Positions 13,753 to 27,381 of a DNA stretch of 35,522 nucleotides are shown piece by piece; the stretch's first letter is position 1, and each line of letters begins with the position of its first letter. This DNA is from Bacteroidales bacterium (GTDB taxonomy: Bacteria > Bacteroidota > Bacteroidia > Bacteroidales > UBA12170): assembly GCA_021157585.1 (NCBI GenBank), contig JAGGWH010000100.1, positions 1-35,522 of the forward strand. Direction: 5' to 3'. The notes under the pieces are model-generated. The model was given only the letters and a program-made list of their open reading frames with translations, had not been told where the DNA came from and searched no databases. The position numbers were made by a program, and so were the translations under genes.

Positions 13753-14754
13753 TTAGTATTTTTCCAGTATATGTAAATACTCTTCAGTTTTATTGGCAGT
13801 ATGATTCCTATTTTTATCTTTATCGGCTTTAAATCGTTGATAGTTAGTAGATGATAAATCGTATTTGCCATAGCGACTCATTATCTTTCTGATATGCTCA
13901 ACCGACATCAGTCCTTCGTTATTATAGCTTAAAAAGATATATTTAAAATTGGCATTTTTAATTAATTCTTCAAACTCGCTACTCACAGAATTTGAACTGC
14001 AATATTTTGATTTATTATATGCTCTTAGACCCGTTTTACCCTTGGGAATAAATGAATCGTATTTGGCAATAGTATTTAAAATGTGATAATTCGCTCCGTA
14101 TTGTCTGGCATTGTATGGTGGATCAAGATAAAGGATATCACCTTCAATTTTATTTATTAGTTTATTACTGTCTGTATTATAAATATCGTTTTTATTATTG
14201 CTTATTTCAAAATTTGCAGGAGAGATAATTAATTCTTTTTGAGCCGATTTTTTTAAATGTTTTAAATACGCTCCGTAAACAGATGCTGTATTAGCCACCT
14301 TATCAGCACTTTCTAATAAGCTGGCTAAAAGAAAGTAATAAGTATCATCATTTATAGTATTGCTATTTTTCCATGCTTCAATCTGTAGCCTGACAGTATC
14401 TATCTTTTTTCCATTATCATCAGAAAAATATTGTCTTTCTCCATTCTTCCCTTTGCAATAGTTAGTATAAATAAATCCTTCTTTGGTTTTAAGCTTATTT
14501 AAGCTTGAAATAAACTTATCATTATTGGCTATTGCTAAATTGTTACCGATATAATTTCTATTTAATACATAGCTGTAATATTCAAAATCGTTACTAATTA
14601 CCTTTTTAACTTCTTGTTTAAAAATCCTGCCAACTATTCCCGTTCCGGCAAAAATATCACAGAAAACTTTCTCTGATAAGTCTTGACCTACGACGGAATA
14701 AACGGTGTTTTTTATAAAGCTTGATAATTTATTTTTAGAACCTATGTAATTCAT
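13753..14754 (-). CDS. D12-class N6-adenine DNA methyltransferase
   Basis: Transfers a methyl group from SAM to adenine in a specific DNA site; 333 aa. The alpha-type order is clear: N-terminal MNYIGSKNKL (motif X), FAGTG (35–39, SAM-binding motif I), ISNDFEYY (53–60), and the catalytic DPPY (211–214) in YLDPPYNARQYGANYH. The RQY…NYH stretch after DPPY is shared by a branch that, from memory, includes CATG methyltransferases such as the NlaIII/HpyI type; the specificity here is unproven. It lies 76 bp downstream of the candidate endonuclease gene on the same strand and convergent with the transporter. The pair looks like a compact type II restriction-modification module inserted between housekeeping genes. 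It may have its own promoter (see 14789–14807). Confidence 0.9.
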   Translation of the reverse strand: MNYIGSKNKLSSFIKNTVYSVVGQDLSEKVFCDIFAGTGIVGRIFKQEVKKVISNDFEYYSYVLNRNYIGNNLAIANNDKFISSLNKLKTKEGFIYTNYCKGKNGERQYFSDDNGKKIDTVRLQIEAWKNSNTINDDTYYFLLASLLESADKVANTASVYGAYLKHLKKSAQKELIISPANFEISNNKNDIYNTDSNKLINKIEGDILYLDPPYNARQYGANYHILNTIAKYDSFIPKGKTGLRAYNKSKYCSSNSVSSEFEELIKNANFKYIFLSYNNEGLMSVEHIRKIMSRYGKYDLSSTNYQRFKADKDKNRNHTANKTEEYLHILEKY

Positions 14755-14788
14755 TTATTTTCTCAGCTCATATTTATTTAATTCTATG

Positions 14789-14807
14789 CAAAAATAGCAA
14801 TCTGCTA
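14789..14807 (-). promoter_or_regulatory. Possible methyltransferase promoter with overlapping inverted repeat
   Basis: The minus strand has TATTTTTG (14796→14789, TAnnTTTG) 34 nt before the methyltransferase ATG. An inverted repeat TAGCA-ATC-TGCTA (14795–14807) lies across its upstream edge. This could let the methyltransferase be transcribed and repressed separately from the upstream gene. The region is short and AT-rich, so this is tentative. Confidence 0.3.
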
Positions 14808-14830
14808 ATTCTATTCGAATATATTTTTTG

Positions 14831-15460
14831 CTATTTAATTCTCTTTGTTATCCAGATAATATCAGATTGAATTTCTCCATTGCCAAAGTTAAATTTATAA
14901 AGTTTGTTCTCTGAGAAATTTTTTACATAATTATCTATAGCTAATTTTAGAAGTCCTATTTCTGATTTCATTTTCCAATGCTCTTTGTTTTTGTAATCAT
15001 ATAAAATAATGAATAATCTGTTTTTTAAGTGTTTTCTGCCTTCCTGACTTTGGTTATTGTAAAGCCATTGTATAAGTTCTCTTTCATGTGTTTTGGCATA
15101 TTGATAAGAATGTTTAAATCCTCTGGGGAATATGCTTGTTTTATGATCGAAAGGAATATTGTTTATTTTAAAGTCAACAAGCTTGTCGCTACGGTTTTTG
15201 TTTGCCTTAATGTTTGAATGTGAGGTAAACAGATACTCGACAGCCATAGCCGACCAAAAGTTATACCATCTGTTTAAGGCGTAGTTTCTCAGCGATTTAT
15301 CAAAATCATGAGTACGCTTTAGTAAAGTTTCAAAACTATATGTTTTATATATAAAATTTGTGGCTCTATCTTTAATATCTGTTTGTTTACTGCCCCAATT
15401 ATATGGATAAACTAAGCGTTTTTTTAATTCAATTTCAAGTCTGCTTAAATCCATAATCAT
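14831..15460 (-). CDS. Unrecognised protein, candidate PD-(D/E)XK restriction endonuclease partner
   Basis: A 209-aa basic cytosolic protein that I do not recognise by family. Seen in sequence: a helix-like segment WSAMAVEYLF with E75, then KLVDFKINNIPFDHKTS carrying D96 and D105-x-K107. The order Glu (helix), Asp, eight residues, D-x-K matches the active-site layout of PD-(D/E)XK nucleases. Aromatic and basic residues are abundant, which fits DNA binding. It sits directly upstream of a D12 methyltransferase on the same strand, as expected of a type II restriction enzyme gene. Function is inferred from context and residue pattern only. It could instead be an accessory or DNA-binding protein. 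ATGs at 15460 and 15454 are both usable. Confidence 0.55.
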   Translation of the reverse strand: MIMDLSRLEIELKKRLVYPYNWGSKQTDIKDRATNFIYKTYSFETLLKRTHDFDKSLRNYALNRWYNFWSAMAVEYLFTSHSNIKANKNRSDKLVDFKINNIPFDHKTSIFPRGFKHSYQYAKTHERELIQWLYNNQSQEGRKHLKNRLFIILYDYKNKEHWKMKSEIGLLKLAIDNYVKNFSENKLYKFNFGNGEIQSDIIWITKRIK

Positions 15461-23976: not shown

Positions 23977-25920
23977 TTAAATCTTGGTAACTACAAATTC
24001 GGTACGGCGGTTTTCTGCGCGTCCTTCTTCAGACTGGTTATCGGCAATGGGTTTTGCTAAACCATAACCTCTATATGTTAATCGTTTGTTCTCAATTTTA
24101 TGCTCAATCAAGAAATCATAAACGGCTTTGGCACGAGCTATTGAAAGTTTTAGGTTATAAGATGCAGTTCCTACATTGTCAGTATGACCTTGAATTTCTA
24201 TGTGAATTGTAGGATTATTATTTAAGAATGAGATGAGTTTTTCTAATTCAATTTCTGATTTTTTCTTTAGCTCCGATTTATCTGTTTCAAAGAAAATATT
24301 TTTTAAGACAACTTTTTCTCCAATGGCAATAGGGTGTAGTGGAATATCTTTTAAAAACGGGTCTTGACTTTCGTAGGCTTTTTGCATTAGGAACTGGTCG
24401 GAATAGAATAAATAACCTTTTCTCGAAACATTTAGTAAATAGTCTTTTCCCAGATTTAAAGTCAATAAAAAGCTTCCGTCAAAAGCATCAGAAATAGAAT
24501 AGATAATTTGCTTTCCCGTTTCAATATCAATAAGCTCAAATTGTGCACTGAGGAGTTCTTGAGTTTTTGCATTGTAGACAACTCCTTTTAAGTAGGTAAT
24601 CTTTTCGGGTTGAATATTTTTTGGTAGCTTGAAAGAGTAGAGGTCAAGCTCGCCAAATCCTTCTTTCCTATCGGAAGCAAAATAGGCTAATTCCCCGTTT
24701 GGAGCAACTAAAATGCTGCTCTCGTCTTTGTTAGTATTAATGGGGTAGCCCAAATTAATCGCTTTTCCCCAATCTTGTTTTTCGTTATCCCATTTCGACA
24801 TATAAATATCTGTTCCTCCCATCCCGATATGTCCGTTAGAAGAGAAGTAAAGAGTCTGATTATCAGGATGGATAAAGACGGATTCTTCGTTTTTATCGGT
24901 GTTGATATTGGAATTTAACTTTACAGGTTTTTTCCAATAACCATTCTCATCAATATCTGCTCTAAAAATATCGGATTGACCTTGAGATCTTTTTGGTGCG
25001 CGGACAAAATAAATACTCTTTCCATCAGATGAAAGTGATGGTTGACTTTCCCAATGTGAGGTGTTGATGGGTGGCCCTAAGTTTTGTGGTTTACTCCAAA
25101 TATTTCCTTTCTTCCGAGAAAAAAATAAATCGCAGCTGCCATATCCTTTTCTTCCATTTCCATATTCTCCAAAATCCTCACAAACGGTAAAAACAAGCGT
25201 TTTCCCATCAGCCGAAAGGCTTGCCGCTCCTTCGTTAAATGGAGTATTAAGTTCGTAAATAGGGAAGCTCTTTCGCCAAAGACTATCATTAAGATTAATA
25301 GCTCCCATAAAATCTTCCTGTTCGCCTTTGCCTTGTCTATCAAGCCTTCGGGTAAATAATAGAAATTTATTATCGATAGTTATTGATGGGAAATATTCCG
25401 ATTTTTTAGTGTTGATATTCGATCCGAGATTTCTCAATTTAAAAGCAACCGGATGCTTTATGGCTTCCAAAGCAAAAAGGCAGTTTTGGATTTGAAATTC
25501 GGCATCTTCTTTTAAGTTTTTACTGATGTTTGAAAAGCTTAAATATTTTTTGAAAGACTGAAGAGCCTCTGTATAAAAACCTTCTTTTAGATATAATTTA
25601 GCCAAGTAATAGTGTTCGTCTGCTACGGCATTTGGGTTAATGGAAAGCCCTTGTTTATAAAAATCAATTGCTCTCAAAGGATAACCCAATTCTTCTTTAA
25701 TAAGGGCGGTTAATAAATAGGCTTCGATAAAATTCCTATCGGTTTTCATTGCTTTCATTAAAATAAGCTCTGCCTCAACTTTGTTTCCTAAGGTATATTC
25801 TATTGAAGCTTCTTTGTAATATTTTTTTGCTCTTTTTGATTGTGTGTGCAGATTTTGTGCTTCCGAAATATAGGGGAGAAGCATTAAAAAAACTACAAAT
25901 AAAAATAACCGTAAATTCAT
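23977..25920 (-). CDS. OmpA-family outer-membrane protein with TPR and PD40 repeats
   Basis: A 647-aa exported protein with a signal peptide ending near YISEAQ. TPR-like helices span about 25–150. Beta-propeller-type PD40/WD40-like repeats follow (about 175–425; repeated SxDGK…FxS/FVR and NTDKNE motifs). A carboxypeptidase-regulatory-like beta domain covers about 440–530. The C-terminal OmpA peptidoglycan-binding domain (about 535–645) has GHTDNVG and the NRRTEFVV ending. This architecture is common in Bacteroidota, and some members (for example PorE) belong to the T9SS and attach it to peptidoglycan. Since a T9SS substrate is encoded nearby, a T9SS or envelope-tethering role is plausible but not proven. 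Confidence 0.9.
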   Translation of the reverse strand: MNLRLFLFVVFLMLLPYISEAQNLHTQSKRAKKYYKEASIEYTLGNKVEAELILMKAMKTDRNFIEAYLLTALIKEELGYPLRAIDFYKQGLSINPNAVADEHYYLAKLYLKEGFYTEALQSFKKYLSFSNISKNLKEDAEFQIQNCLFALEAIKHPVAFKLRNLGSNINTKKSEYFPSITIDNKFLLFTRRLDRQGKGEQEDFMGAINLNDSLWRKSFPIYELNTPFNEGAASLSADGKTLVFTVCEDFGEYGNGRKGYGSCDLFFSRKKGNIWSKPQNLGPPINTSHWESQPSLSSDGKSIYFVRAPKRSQGQSDIFRADIDENGYWKKPVKLNSNINTDKNEESVFIHPDNQTLYFSSNGHIGMGGTDIYMSKWDNEKQDWGKAINLGYPINTNKDESSILVAPNGELAYFASDRKEGFGELDLYSFKLPKNIQPEKITYLKGVVYNAKTQELLSAQFELIDIETGKQIIYSISDAFDGSFLLTLNLGKDYLLNVSRKGYLFYSDQFLMQKAYESQDPFLKDIPLHPIAIGEKVVLKNIFFETDKSELKKKSEIELEKLISFLNNNPTIHIEIQGHTDNVGTASYNLKLSIARAKAVYDFLIEHKIENKRLTYRGYGLAKPIADNQSEEGRAENRRTEFVVTKI

Positions 25921-25934
25921 ATTTTGGTTTTAAA

Positions 25935-25942
25935 CAAAGATA
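25935..25942 (-). promoter_or_regulatory. Bacteroidota −7 box for the OmpA-family gene
   Basis: The minus strand reads TATCTTTG, exact TAnnTTTG, 14 nt upstream of the ATG at 25920. No −33 TTG is seen. Confidence 0.45.
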
Positions 25943-26040
25943 GGGATTTTGTATTAAATTGTAGAATATTTAAGATTTATGGAATAGGTCAAATATTCAC
26001 TTATTTTTAAACTGAAAGCTTATATTATTAAGCTCAATAA

Positions 26041-26053
26041 GCAGCAGAGCTGC
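26041..26053. repeat. Stem-swapped variant of the REP-like hairpin
   Basis: GCAGC-AGA-GCTGC forms a 5-bp stem with the AGA loop seen in the GGTGC-AGA-GCACC repeats. Two of the five stem pairs differ, and both changes are compensated on the other arm. The downstream GAAATATT also resembles the tail of the array units (GATAATATT). It lies 39 nt outside the left inverted repeat of the transposase element. Confidence 0.55.
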
Positions 26054-26091
26054 GAAATATTGATAGATAATATGGATAGTGAAAGAGTTTA

Positions 26092-26640
26092 AGGTGCAGA
26101 GCACCGAAACATAAAGTAATATTTGCTGTAAATCTTAATCGTCAAAAAAATTGAATATGTATTTGTCATTATATTGAGTATCATTTTTTCGTAAAATTTC
26201 TAGATATTCCACCTTAAATGATTCCTTTTTATGATGTTTCTCTTGATTTAATATGTATTTAACAACGGTATTTATTTGAGAATGTGAATGGGTAAATGCA
26301 CCATATCCTTTTTGCCATTCAAATTTATATTTTGATAATTTGTTTTGTTTTATCCAAGCATTGCTAGATGTTTTTATTTCTTCTACCAAATCAGGAATAA
26401 GCTGGTTCAAGTTGTAGCCAATAAAAATATGGATATGATCGGGCATTGAACTTATTGCCAGTACTTTATGCTTGTGGTTTTGAATAATTCCTGTAATGTA
26501 CTTTTCTAGTTCATTTTTCCACGATTTTTTTATTAGTGCCTCACGATTTTTCGGTGAAAAAACTAAATGAAAATAGGCTTGTGAATAGGTGTTTGCCATT
26601 TTTTTATTTTTAAACTTCAAGGTTTCGGTGCTCTGCACCT
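26092..26640. mobile_element. IS200-like / REP-associated (RAYT-type) transposase element with hairpin inverted repeats
   Basis: A 549-bp unit holding one Y1 transposase gene. The left end is AGGTGCAGAGCACCGAAAC (26092–26110), and its exact reverse complement forms the right end (26622–26640), giving perfect 19-bp inverted repeats. Each contains a 5-bp-stem, 3-nt-loop hairpin (26093–26105 and 26627–26639). The left repeat ends 24 bp beyond the gene's stop and the right repeat starts 22 bp before its ATG, so the frame is nearly symmetrical. Ordinary IS200/IS605 elements lack terminal inverted repeats. Paired inverted hairpins around a Y1 gene are instead typical of REP/BIME–RAYT loci. Element limits are set by the repeats, as no target duplication is expected. 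Confidence 0.75.
26135..26599 (-). CDS. tnpA: Y1 (HUH) transposase, IS200/IS605 or REP-associated family
   Basis: A single-strand DNA transposase of 154 aa that cuts and rejoins hairpin-marked DNA through a 5'-phosphotyrosine. The start at 26599 (MANTYSQAYFHLVFSPKNRE) is preferred; a longer frame to 26638 would run through the hairpin repeat. The HUH motif is H55-I-H57 in MPDHIHIFIG. The presumed nucleophile is Y115 in VVKYILNQEKHH. GYGAF (98–102) precedes it, as in Bacteroidota members of this family. The frame is intact, so the enzyme may be active. There is no tnpB or IscB gene next to it. It lies downstream of rdgB on the same strand, with a hairpin array between. Confidence 0.93.
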   Translation of the reverse strand: MANTYSQAYFHLVFSPKNREALIKKSWKNELEKYITGIIQNHKHKVLAISSMPDHIHIFIGYNLNQLIPDLVEEIKTSSNAWIKQNKLSKYKFEWQKGYGAFTHSHSQINTVVKYILNQEKHHKKESFKVEYLEILRKNDTQYNDKYIFNFFDD

Positions 26641-26674
26641 CGTTTTCCTTGCGGTATTTTCAACTATTAAGATT

Positions 26675-26770
26675 ATCGGTGCTCTGCACCTACAAATATT
26701 ATCGGTGCTCTGCACCTACAAATATTATCGGTGCTCTGCACCTACAAATATTATCGGTGCTCTGCACCTA
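26675..26770. repeat. Tandem array of REP-like hairpins, 26-bp period
   Basis: Four copies of GGTGCTCTGCACC occur at 26678–26690, 26704–26716, 26730–26742 and 26756–26768, exactly 26 bp apart. Each is preceded by TATC; the first three are followed by TACAAATAT and the last unit is truncated after CTA. Each copy folds to a 5-bp stem with a TCT loop (AGA on the other strand). The array lies between the right inverted repeat of the transposase element and the 3' end of rdgB. It is the same hairpin as the element ends, in the orientation of the right end. It may be a source or product of transposase activity and may also shape the 3' end of the rdgB mRNA. Confidence 0.85.
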
Positions 26771-26796
26771 AGTTACCAATTTTATTTTATCTATGG

Positions 26797-27381
26797 CTAG
26801 TATAGCTTATTCAAAAAAGCAATCAGCTTTTGGCTAGCCATGCCGCGATGACTAATCTTATTTTTCTCTTCTAAAGGCATTTGGGCAAAGGTTTGTGTAA
26901 AGCCTAAAGGACGGAAAATTGGATCGTAACCAAAACCTTTATTACCCTGGATAGGTTTTTCTGTAATCTCTCCTTCAACCACTCCTTCAAAACTATATTC
27001 CTTGCCATCGATTATAAGCGCAATAACCGTTTTAAAACGAGCCGTCCTTAATTTTTTCCCTTTCATCTCTTCAAGTACTTTATTTACATTGTCCTCAAAG
27101 CTGCAATTTTCTCCGGCATAACGTGCGGAATAAACTCCCGGCTTACCACCTAAGGCATCAATCTCTAAACCGGTATCGTCGGCAAAACAATTGTAGTGGT
27201 AGCGACTATTAACAAAACGCGCCTTTTCAAAAGCATTATCTTTTAATGTTTCGTGCGGTTCTTCAATTTCTTCAAAGCATTGTATATCAGATAGGCTAAG
27301 TAGCTCAAAATGAGATTGAATTAAAGGCGCAACTTCTTGGAGTTTATGTTTGTTGTTGGTCGCAAAAACAAGTTTCTTCAT
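26797..27381 (-). CDS. rdgB: Non-canonical purine NTP pyrophosphatase RdgB/HAM1
   Basis: Hydrolyses ITP, dITP and XTP to monophosphates, keeping deaminated purines out of nucleic acids. 194 aa from the ATG at 27381, chosen because MKKLVFATNNKHKL begins the family's first strand; a longer frame to 27402 adds seven residues. Key motifs are TNNKHK (8–13), ADDTGLEIDAL with the catalytic aspartates, GKPGVYSARYAG, FGYDPIF, and the C-terminal SHRGMA. It lies 66 bp downstream of ddl on the same strand. Its 3' flank is the 26-bp hairpin array. Confidence 0.95.
   Translation of the reverse strand: MKKLVFATNNKHKLQEVAPLIQSHFELLSLSDIQCFEEIEEPHETLKDNAFEKARFVNSRYHYNCFADDTGLEIDALGGKPGVYSARYAGENCSFEDNVNKVLEEMKGKKLRTARFKTVIALIIDGKEYSFEGVVEGEITEKPIQGNKGFGYDPIFRPLGFTQTFAQMPLEEKNKISHRGMASQKLIAFLNKLY

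Follow-up and report, generated by a model that had tools for sequence, protein, structure and literature searches.

The insert between an RdgB-like and an OmpA-like gene in this Bacteroidales genome is likely to be a REPtron-like unit, in which arrays of short hairpins surround their cognate enzyme, a Y1 HUH transposase (TnpA) of the IS200-type subclass 1.2. Transposases of this kind occur together with hairpins, the stems of these hairpins covary, and hairpin elements without the gene are dispersed in the genomes of relatives.

The transposase and its locus

The window, meaning the whole stretch of 35,522 nucleotides that was analysed, contains an intact tnpA ORF on the minus strand, with its ATG at 26599 and its stop codon at 26135-26137 (Table 1). 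The protein has the catalytic residues H55-I-H57 and Y115 (numbering counted by reading) and the Tyr motif YILNQEKHH, which displays the Y---Q--HH signature of TnpA-Y1 subclass 1.2; the Y..NP Tyr motif of RAYTs (TnpAREP, class 2) is absent. It matches the Pfam profile Y1_Tnp with 94.1 bits (cut-off 23), passes the NCBIfam IS200 profile (66.4, cut-off 55), and fails the NCBIfam profile REP_Tyr_transpos (27.8 bits, cut-off 80). Judged by its Tyr motif together with these profile scores, TnpA is an IS200-type enzyme of subclass 1.2 (class 1) and not a RAYT, contrary to the original prediction of a REP/RAYT-like unit. It also matches the sequences of the solved ISHp608 transposase (2a6m) and of 2xm3, which we take to be ISDra2. 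Most relatives (the best 80 of 410, see below) align up to residue 149-154, close to the C-terminal end, where subclass 1.2 enzymes have a conserved domain specific to them that the window protein may share.

As described in Quentin 2018 (PMC6006769), subclass 1.2 enzymes are, like the window TnpA, IS200-related proteins of about 150 aa with the Y---Q--HH signature, present in low copy number in Bacteroidetes or Cyanobacteria; their genes generally lack terminal IS200 structures. The window's own genome contains two Y1 genes, which are 51% identical, in agreement with this low copy number, and only one of them is of the window type; a single-copy gene is what the original prediction called for.

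Table 1. Features of the tnpA locus, in window coordinates
Feature	Position	Strand	Evidence
TnpA (154 aa), Y1 HUH transposase of the subclass 1.2 type	26135..26599	-	Pfam, NCBIfam, Tyr motif
Left 19-bp arm, downstream side of tnpA; core hairpin GGTGC-AGA-GCACC	arm 26092-26110, hairpin 26093..26105	+	
Right 19-bp arm, upstream side of tnpA; core hairpin GGTGC-AGA-GCACC	arm 26622-26640, hairpin 26627..26639	-	
Tandem array, period 26 bp, 3.8 copies, 100% match	26672..26770	-	
Array hairpins	26678-26690, 26704-26716, 26730-26742, 26756-26768	-	
Stem-variant hairpin GCAGC-AGA-GCTGC, then GAAATATTGATAG; GAAA tail	26041..26053	+	
Intergenic insert with REPtron-like unit, 876 bp, between RdgB-like and OmpA-like genes	25921..26796	.	

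The perfect inverted pair originally noted around the intact Y1 HUH transposase gene was confirmed: both arms measure 19 nt, are 100% complementary, and lie 24 and 22 bp from the tnpA ORF. The extra hairpins reported nearby are also real, five being present besides the pair. The core GGTGCAGAGCACC occurs six times in the window, once on the plus strand and five times on the minus strand, as compared to 0.13 times on average and never more than 2 in 100 shuffles of the window (at most two mismatches). The tandem array lies on the rdgB side of tnpA and the stem variant GCAGC-AGA-GCTGC on the opposite side, which is also the side it occupies in the congener G001 (= G344; L152 position 48). The array and the seventh hairpin (26041-26053) fall outside positions 26092-26640, to which the unit had first been assigned; the unit should be taken as the entire insert that separates the RdgB-like gene from the OmpA-like one. 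Three of the seven hairpins, all within the tandem array, show a GT[AG]G foot (by reading), and the outer halves of the multi-hairpin element found in relatives (see below) are missing here.

In the closest relative, G001, the unit is likewise bordered by rdgB and the OmpA-like gene, with a whole element on both sides of tnpA; its OmpA side is on a second contig, the end of which overlaps the first by 17 nt (by reading). Several of the first 25 relatives carry a complete element to one side of the gene. In the congeners G347 and G353, rdgB and the OmpA-like gene are about 50 bp apart, versus 876 bp in the window, and this junction contains no TnpA and no hairpins. The unit must therefore have been gained or lost within the genus. 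The TnpA proteins of the window and G001 are 90% identical, and the dN of 0.056 and dS of 0.82 of their genes (26135-26599 versus L145 122-583) point to purifying selection. Compared with the same congener, the neighbouring genes have a dN of 0.197 and a dS of 2.24 (OmpA) and a dN of 0.15 with saturated dS (RdgB). Because TnpA is less diverged than its neighbours, joint vertical descent of the locus is not certain, and a later exchange is possible. The slow divergence of TnpA between congeners is unlike the rapid evolution reported for RAYTs.

The presence or absence of gene and hairpins as a whole between congeners means that there was at least one gain or loss of entire units, and together with the IS200-like protein this would suit an ordinary insertion sequence of the IS200/IS605 type, the hairpins being its own subterminal ends. 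We nevertheless consider that explanation unlikely, given that the genome contains a single copy of this type and not the multiple whole copies with same-sense ends typical of IS200/IS605, that the hairpins are inverted about the gene with several on each side, and that elements without the gene occur elsewhere in relatives. Moreover, subclass 1.2 is stated not to share IS properties (Quentin 2018, PMC6006769).

Elsewhere in the window (13753-15460), a gene resembles DNA methyltransferases of the adenine type, and the 209-aa protein encoded next to it may be the corresponding restriction enzyme (both by reading).

Hairpins beside related transposases

We scanned public genomes with the protein alone and kept the best 80 of 410 relatives. 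Titles of the Bacteroidota type accompany 77 of these 80; the others are Caldithrix, KSB1, and an FCB-group bacterium (read from titles). Adding the window and the second Y1 gene of its genome, on contig C177, resulted in 82 proteins, of which five with a frame below 140 aa were left out. All of the remaining 77 display Y---Q--HH and WQ, and 76 match the HUH pattern used, the exception being L035.

We considered a locus usable if the gene had 200 bp or more of sequence on either side; with the window and C177 left out, the best 80 of 410 yielded 69 such loci. A hairpin with a 5-bp stem lies within 250 bp of the gene in 68 of these (280 hairpins in total), the sole exception being L079, where none was found within that distance. 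Hairpins are present on both sides of the gene in 47 of the 69 loci, and in 40 the same stem is found inverted on both sides; a gene between inverted palindromes is a trait of RAYTs and is likewise seen in the window. Including the window and C177, these numbers become 70, 48, and 41 of 71 loci, with 289 hairpins, and 100 dinucleotide shuffles of this 71-locus set gave a mean of 7.8 hairpins and no same-stem pairs.

If hairpins are oriented by their loop (AGA, AGC, GGA, or GTA versus their complements), the one nearest to the gene faces it in 108 of 117 flanks. A strict tail match gives 53 toward the gene and one away, with 68 undecided for lack of a strict match on either side. The 14 commonest spacings comprise 78 cases of 49-55 bp and 12 of 25-26 bp. 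The unit of this clade comprises a perfect 5-bp stem and a loop that is AGA or AGC; in most cases it is preceded by an A (immediately 5' of 283 out of 321 hairpins), and it is followed by the tail consensus GNAATATTTGTAG, the last four positions of which hold in 37-58% of the 321 hairpins. Similar tails are found beside far relatives, such as L083 from a KSB1 bacterium. With a GT[AG]G foot in 16 of 216 cases, the hairpins are not canonical GTAG REPs.

At one locus (L084, 1120-2400), a subclass 1.2 gene accompanied by GCACTCC-GTA-GGAGTGC hairpins of its own adjoins the N-terminal piece of another tnpA (51 aa aligned), which follows hairpins of the GGTGC type; here, one unit may have landed inside another.

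When sites were anchored on the tail in the 80 loci (best 80 of 410), 118 of 168 showed a perfect 5-bp stem, with 15 different stems, as compared to 1, 1, 2, 2, 3, and 5 of 168 for decoys at six offsets. With the window and 20 stretches of genome G044 added, the latter having been picked for the motif, there were 157 perfect stems among 216 sites versus 1-11 for the decoys. In this larger set, each of the four Watson-Crick pairs occurs at the third stem position, and the fifth is invariably C-G. The effect was kept when the main counts were repeated without the window and the motif-picked stretches. By the evidence of these covarying sequences, the stem is selected as a structure.

Stem type also follows the protein. 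With each protein labelled by the inner stem bases of its commonest hairpin, the inner two bases change 10 times on the tree of 75 proteins, versus a mean of 23.2 and a minimum of 18 after shuffling, and the full 5-nt stem changes 27 times, versus a mean of 33.4 and a minimum of 31, the tree being a quick one in which 33 of 73 inner branches are open.

The same data speak to a role in regulation. Perfect palindromes close to promoters can be operators, and upstream hairpins could lower tnpA expression, as is described for REPs and IS200 (PMC3733652); the palindromes might be double-stranded operators of a dimeric regulator, or RNA hairpins controlling tnpA or its neighbours, and not transposition substrates. 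However, stems of different sequence at one locus covary although loops and tails change little, which fits a folded strand more readily than the half-sites of a dimer. In relatives, moreover, dispersed copies form symmetric elements, one of them with an empty site. No Rfam family was found in 25900-26850 at the gathering threshold. A purely regulatory role is therefore very unlikely.

Dispersal of hairpin elements

The window's own assembly is a 2.93-Mb MAG of 183 contigs and 95.5% completeness. Across it, GGTGCAGMGCACC has no copy beyond the six at the locus. The single core-and-tail pattern used to cover other stem types in this genome, GCAGAGCNNNGAAA, yielded three hairpins, all at the locus, and one outside match on contig C182 that is not a hairpin. 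Canonical REPs have many dispersed copies in their host; here, the locus holds all that were found, six copies and a variant. Further copies may be missing where the MAG breaks into contigs. The GGTGC family in its own genome appears either to have remained unspread beyond its home locus or to have been lost elsewhere.

The second subclass 1.2 gene of this genome, on contig C177 (L010/L150, gene 254-730), also encodes Y---Q--HH and has three different hairpins upstream. The composite of these three hairpins recurs on C37 (L146) and on C63 (L147; one complete copy and one truncated where the contig ends), and the stretches taken around the C37 and C63 composites hold no Y1 gene. TCCCGTAGGGAY, a doubtful candidate for the hairpin of this second gene, has seven matches in the genome: one (C96) is without a 5-bp stem, two (C97) occur in a different context, and four are in three-hairpin composites, one of these four being cut by a contig end.

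In the relatives, we analysed 48 genomes, reached via 50 of the 80 loci (best 80 of 410). GGTGCAGMGCACC is present in 42 of the 48, with up to 86 copies, and the reversed pattern has no copy in any of them. At least four copies were found in 34 of these 48 genomes, versus 7 of 296 genomes of the phylum, the window's own being among the seven; the corresponding Fisher p of 7e-29, uncorrected for relatedness, overstates independence because the 48 genomes are related and were reached via a TnpA relative and because some copies are located at tnpA. Copy-rich genomes with a species name include Marinifilum flexuosum (36 copies), Maribellus luteus (33), and Dyadobacter frigoris (86). Counting against the association of hairpins and TnpA, GGTGCAGMGCACC was not found in six of the 48 genomes with a TnpA relative, and at the TnpA loci of those six another stem is the commonest, with a tie with GGTGC (GTA loop) at L022.

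Two genomes of one genus, from the same class as the window, likewise speak against it: they contain five copies of GGTGCAGMGCACC with no TnpA match (G120) and eight copies with a best TnpA match of 41% identity (G214); these may be orphan hairpins or chance matches.

Dispersed hairpins take the form of singles, arrays, and symmetric multi-hairpin elements, most of those examined being without a transposase. In Marinifilum flexuosum, 16 stretches contain the 36 copies. For 14 of these stretches, no TnpA is encoded within the 3-4 kb examined, and 35 of the 36 copies are outside ORFs of at least 100 aa. In Dyadobacter frigoris, four stretches were examined out of many listed sites, all without TnpA. 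Symmetric inverted doublets that are intergenic, dispersed, and free of a transposase, as is typical of REPINs, are thus seen in relatives only and not in the window's own genome.

In G044, 20 stretches chosen for inverted pairs hold elements of symmetric build, the hairpins being arranged as outer and inner ones with their tails pointing outward. Several Marinifilum elements share this plan; others are single or partial. The 40 outer ends in G044 are conserved from AA through the hairpin to GNAATAT, with 1.71 bits at +7, 0.5-1.0 at +8 to +12, mostly lower values beyond, and AT-rich flanks. In this genome, conservation has a sharp edge 7 nt past the outer hairpin, as expected of an element end. 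A Marinifilum element without TnpA (L129), about 170 bp long, has an empty counterpart: its flanking genes adjoin directly in two Labilibaculum genomes. The element is present in another Marinifilum (G374), and a third, G024, has different DNA there.

Tandem runs of roughly ten hairpin units each were observed in G044 (L099) and in Dyadobacter frigoris (contig C45 295454-296062); these expanded runs, with repeat lengths of 26 bp and mostly 54 bp, suggest slippage or serial copying.

The resemblance of such 26-bp and 54-bp arrays to products of slippage or unequal exchange, and the occurrence of several matches to this protein in many genomes, raise the possibility that some other Y1 enzyme, or else replication slippage, spreads the hairpins, the subclass 1.2 TnpA being no more than a preferred neighbour. 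The stem type tracks the TnpA tree, however, and hairpins accompany TnpA at 68 of the 69 usable loci from the best 80 of 410, which makes this highly improbable. All three alternatives are weaker than the REPtron-like reading.

The original prediction of a system of the REP type rather than an ordinary insertion sequence thus holds in part. Inverted hairpins on both sides of the gene agree with it, as do the dispersed copies without the gene and the empty site, both in relatives; the solo copies of this hairpin that were to be sought in the window's own genome did not turn up. It had named several near-identical whole units combined with an absence of solo hairpins as the outcome that would speak against it, and this genome has neither solo hairpins nor further copies of the whole unit.

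Proposed function and relation to known systems

Y1 HUH enzymes, including those of IS608 and ISDra2 and TnpAREP, bind a hairpin on single-stranded DNA and cut nearby via a tyrosine. IS608 and ISDra2 (IS200/IS605, subclass 1.1) share the HUH and Tyr core with the window TnpA; unlike the window unit, they have same-sense left and right hairpins and mobilise themselves. By analogy with such enzymes, and in agreement with the anatomy of the elements, TnpA would recognise the hairpin once it has folded in single-stranded DNA (probably in the template of the lagging strand), reading stem shape and loop. It would then cut near GNAATAT (the AATAT tail) and move or copy pairs of hairpins, not its own gene, to new intergenic sites. 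In this scheme, binding, cleavage, strand choice, copy mode, and transposition are all modelled on the better-known enzymes; association is in itself no proof that TnpA moves hairpins.

The closest parallels are REPtrons, that is, RAYTs with their REPs, BIMEs, and REPINs, which (Nunvar 2010, PMC2817692; Bertels and Rainey 2011, PMC3116915) likewise feature inverted hairpins flanking a Y1 gene, cognate pairs, and dispersed intergenic inverted doublets. The system described here differs from these RAYT (class 2) systems in its class 1 enzyme without Y..NP, in having a GT[AG]G foot at only 16 of 216 hairpins, in the conserved 3' tail, and in having often four hairpins. Its pattern copies number up to 86 in the 48 genomes, versus more than 100 in the RAYT paper. 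Perfect 5-bp stems are known from the Group 3 REPtron of Marinomonas, where they are TnpA substrates; there, the GTAG guide is 2 nt from the stem and the enzyme is of class 2 (PMC8266576). CGTC-tagged REPs, as presented in Di Nocera 2013 (PMC3733652), are similar in being palindromic repeats of Bacteroidetes, often as dimers, and differ in their stems of 8-9 bp and in that no dedicated transposase is reported for them. The idea that they are the repeats of subclass 1.2 was dropped in view of this stem length, no match having been shown.

REPtrons with REPIN-like elements are thus already known as a kind, as are 5-bp REPs (PMC8266576). The table in Quentin 2018 (PMC6006769) lists subclass 1.2 with the entry "REP: no", whereas here hairpins flank 68 of the 69 usable loci from the best 80 of 410. 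A literature search by title and start of abstract, with subscription papers mostly outside its reach, found no description of subclass 1.2 hairpins. As far as this search shows, the new aspects are the presence of hairpins at nearly every subclass 1.2 locus examined, their different foot, the conserved 3' tail, and the multi-hairpin elements. We lean toward the broader view that REPIN-like systems had a second origin, with IS200-type transposases (class 1) as the source. Throughout the Bacteroidota, TnpAs of subclass 1.2 would then be the dedicated enzymes of a large undescribed hairpin superfamily with a conserved GNAATAT end and often four hairpins per mobile unit, whose stems diverge clade by clade with the enzyme.

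A subclass listed as REP-less is thus flanked by hairpins of its own, the type of which tracks the enzyme tree. For an uncharacterised protein group, this provides a candidate substrate along with a function that can be put to the test. The copy-rich named genomes make the system directly testable. Unannotated intergenic palindromes in Bacteroidota may find their explanation here. If the enzyme does move hairpins, domestication for hairpin traffic would have occurred also outside the RAYT class, in a phylum with few described REPs.
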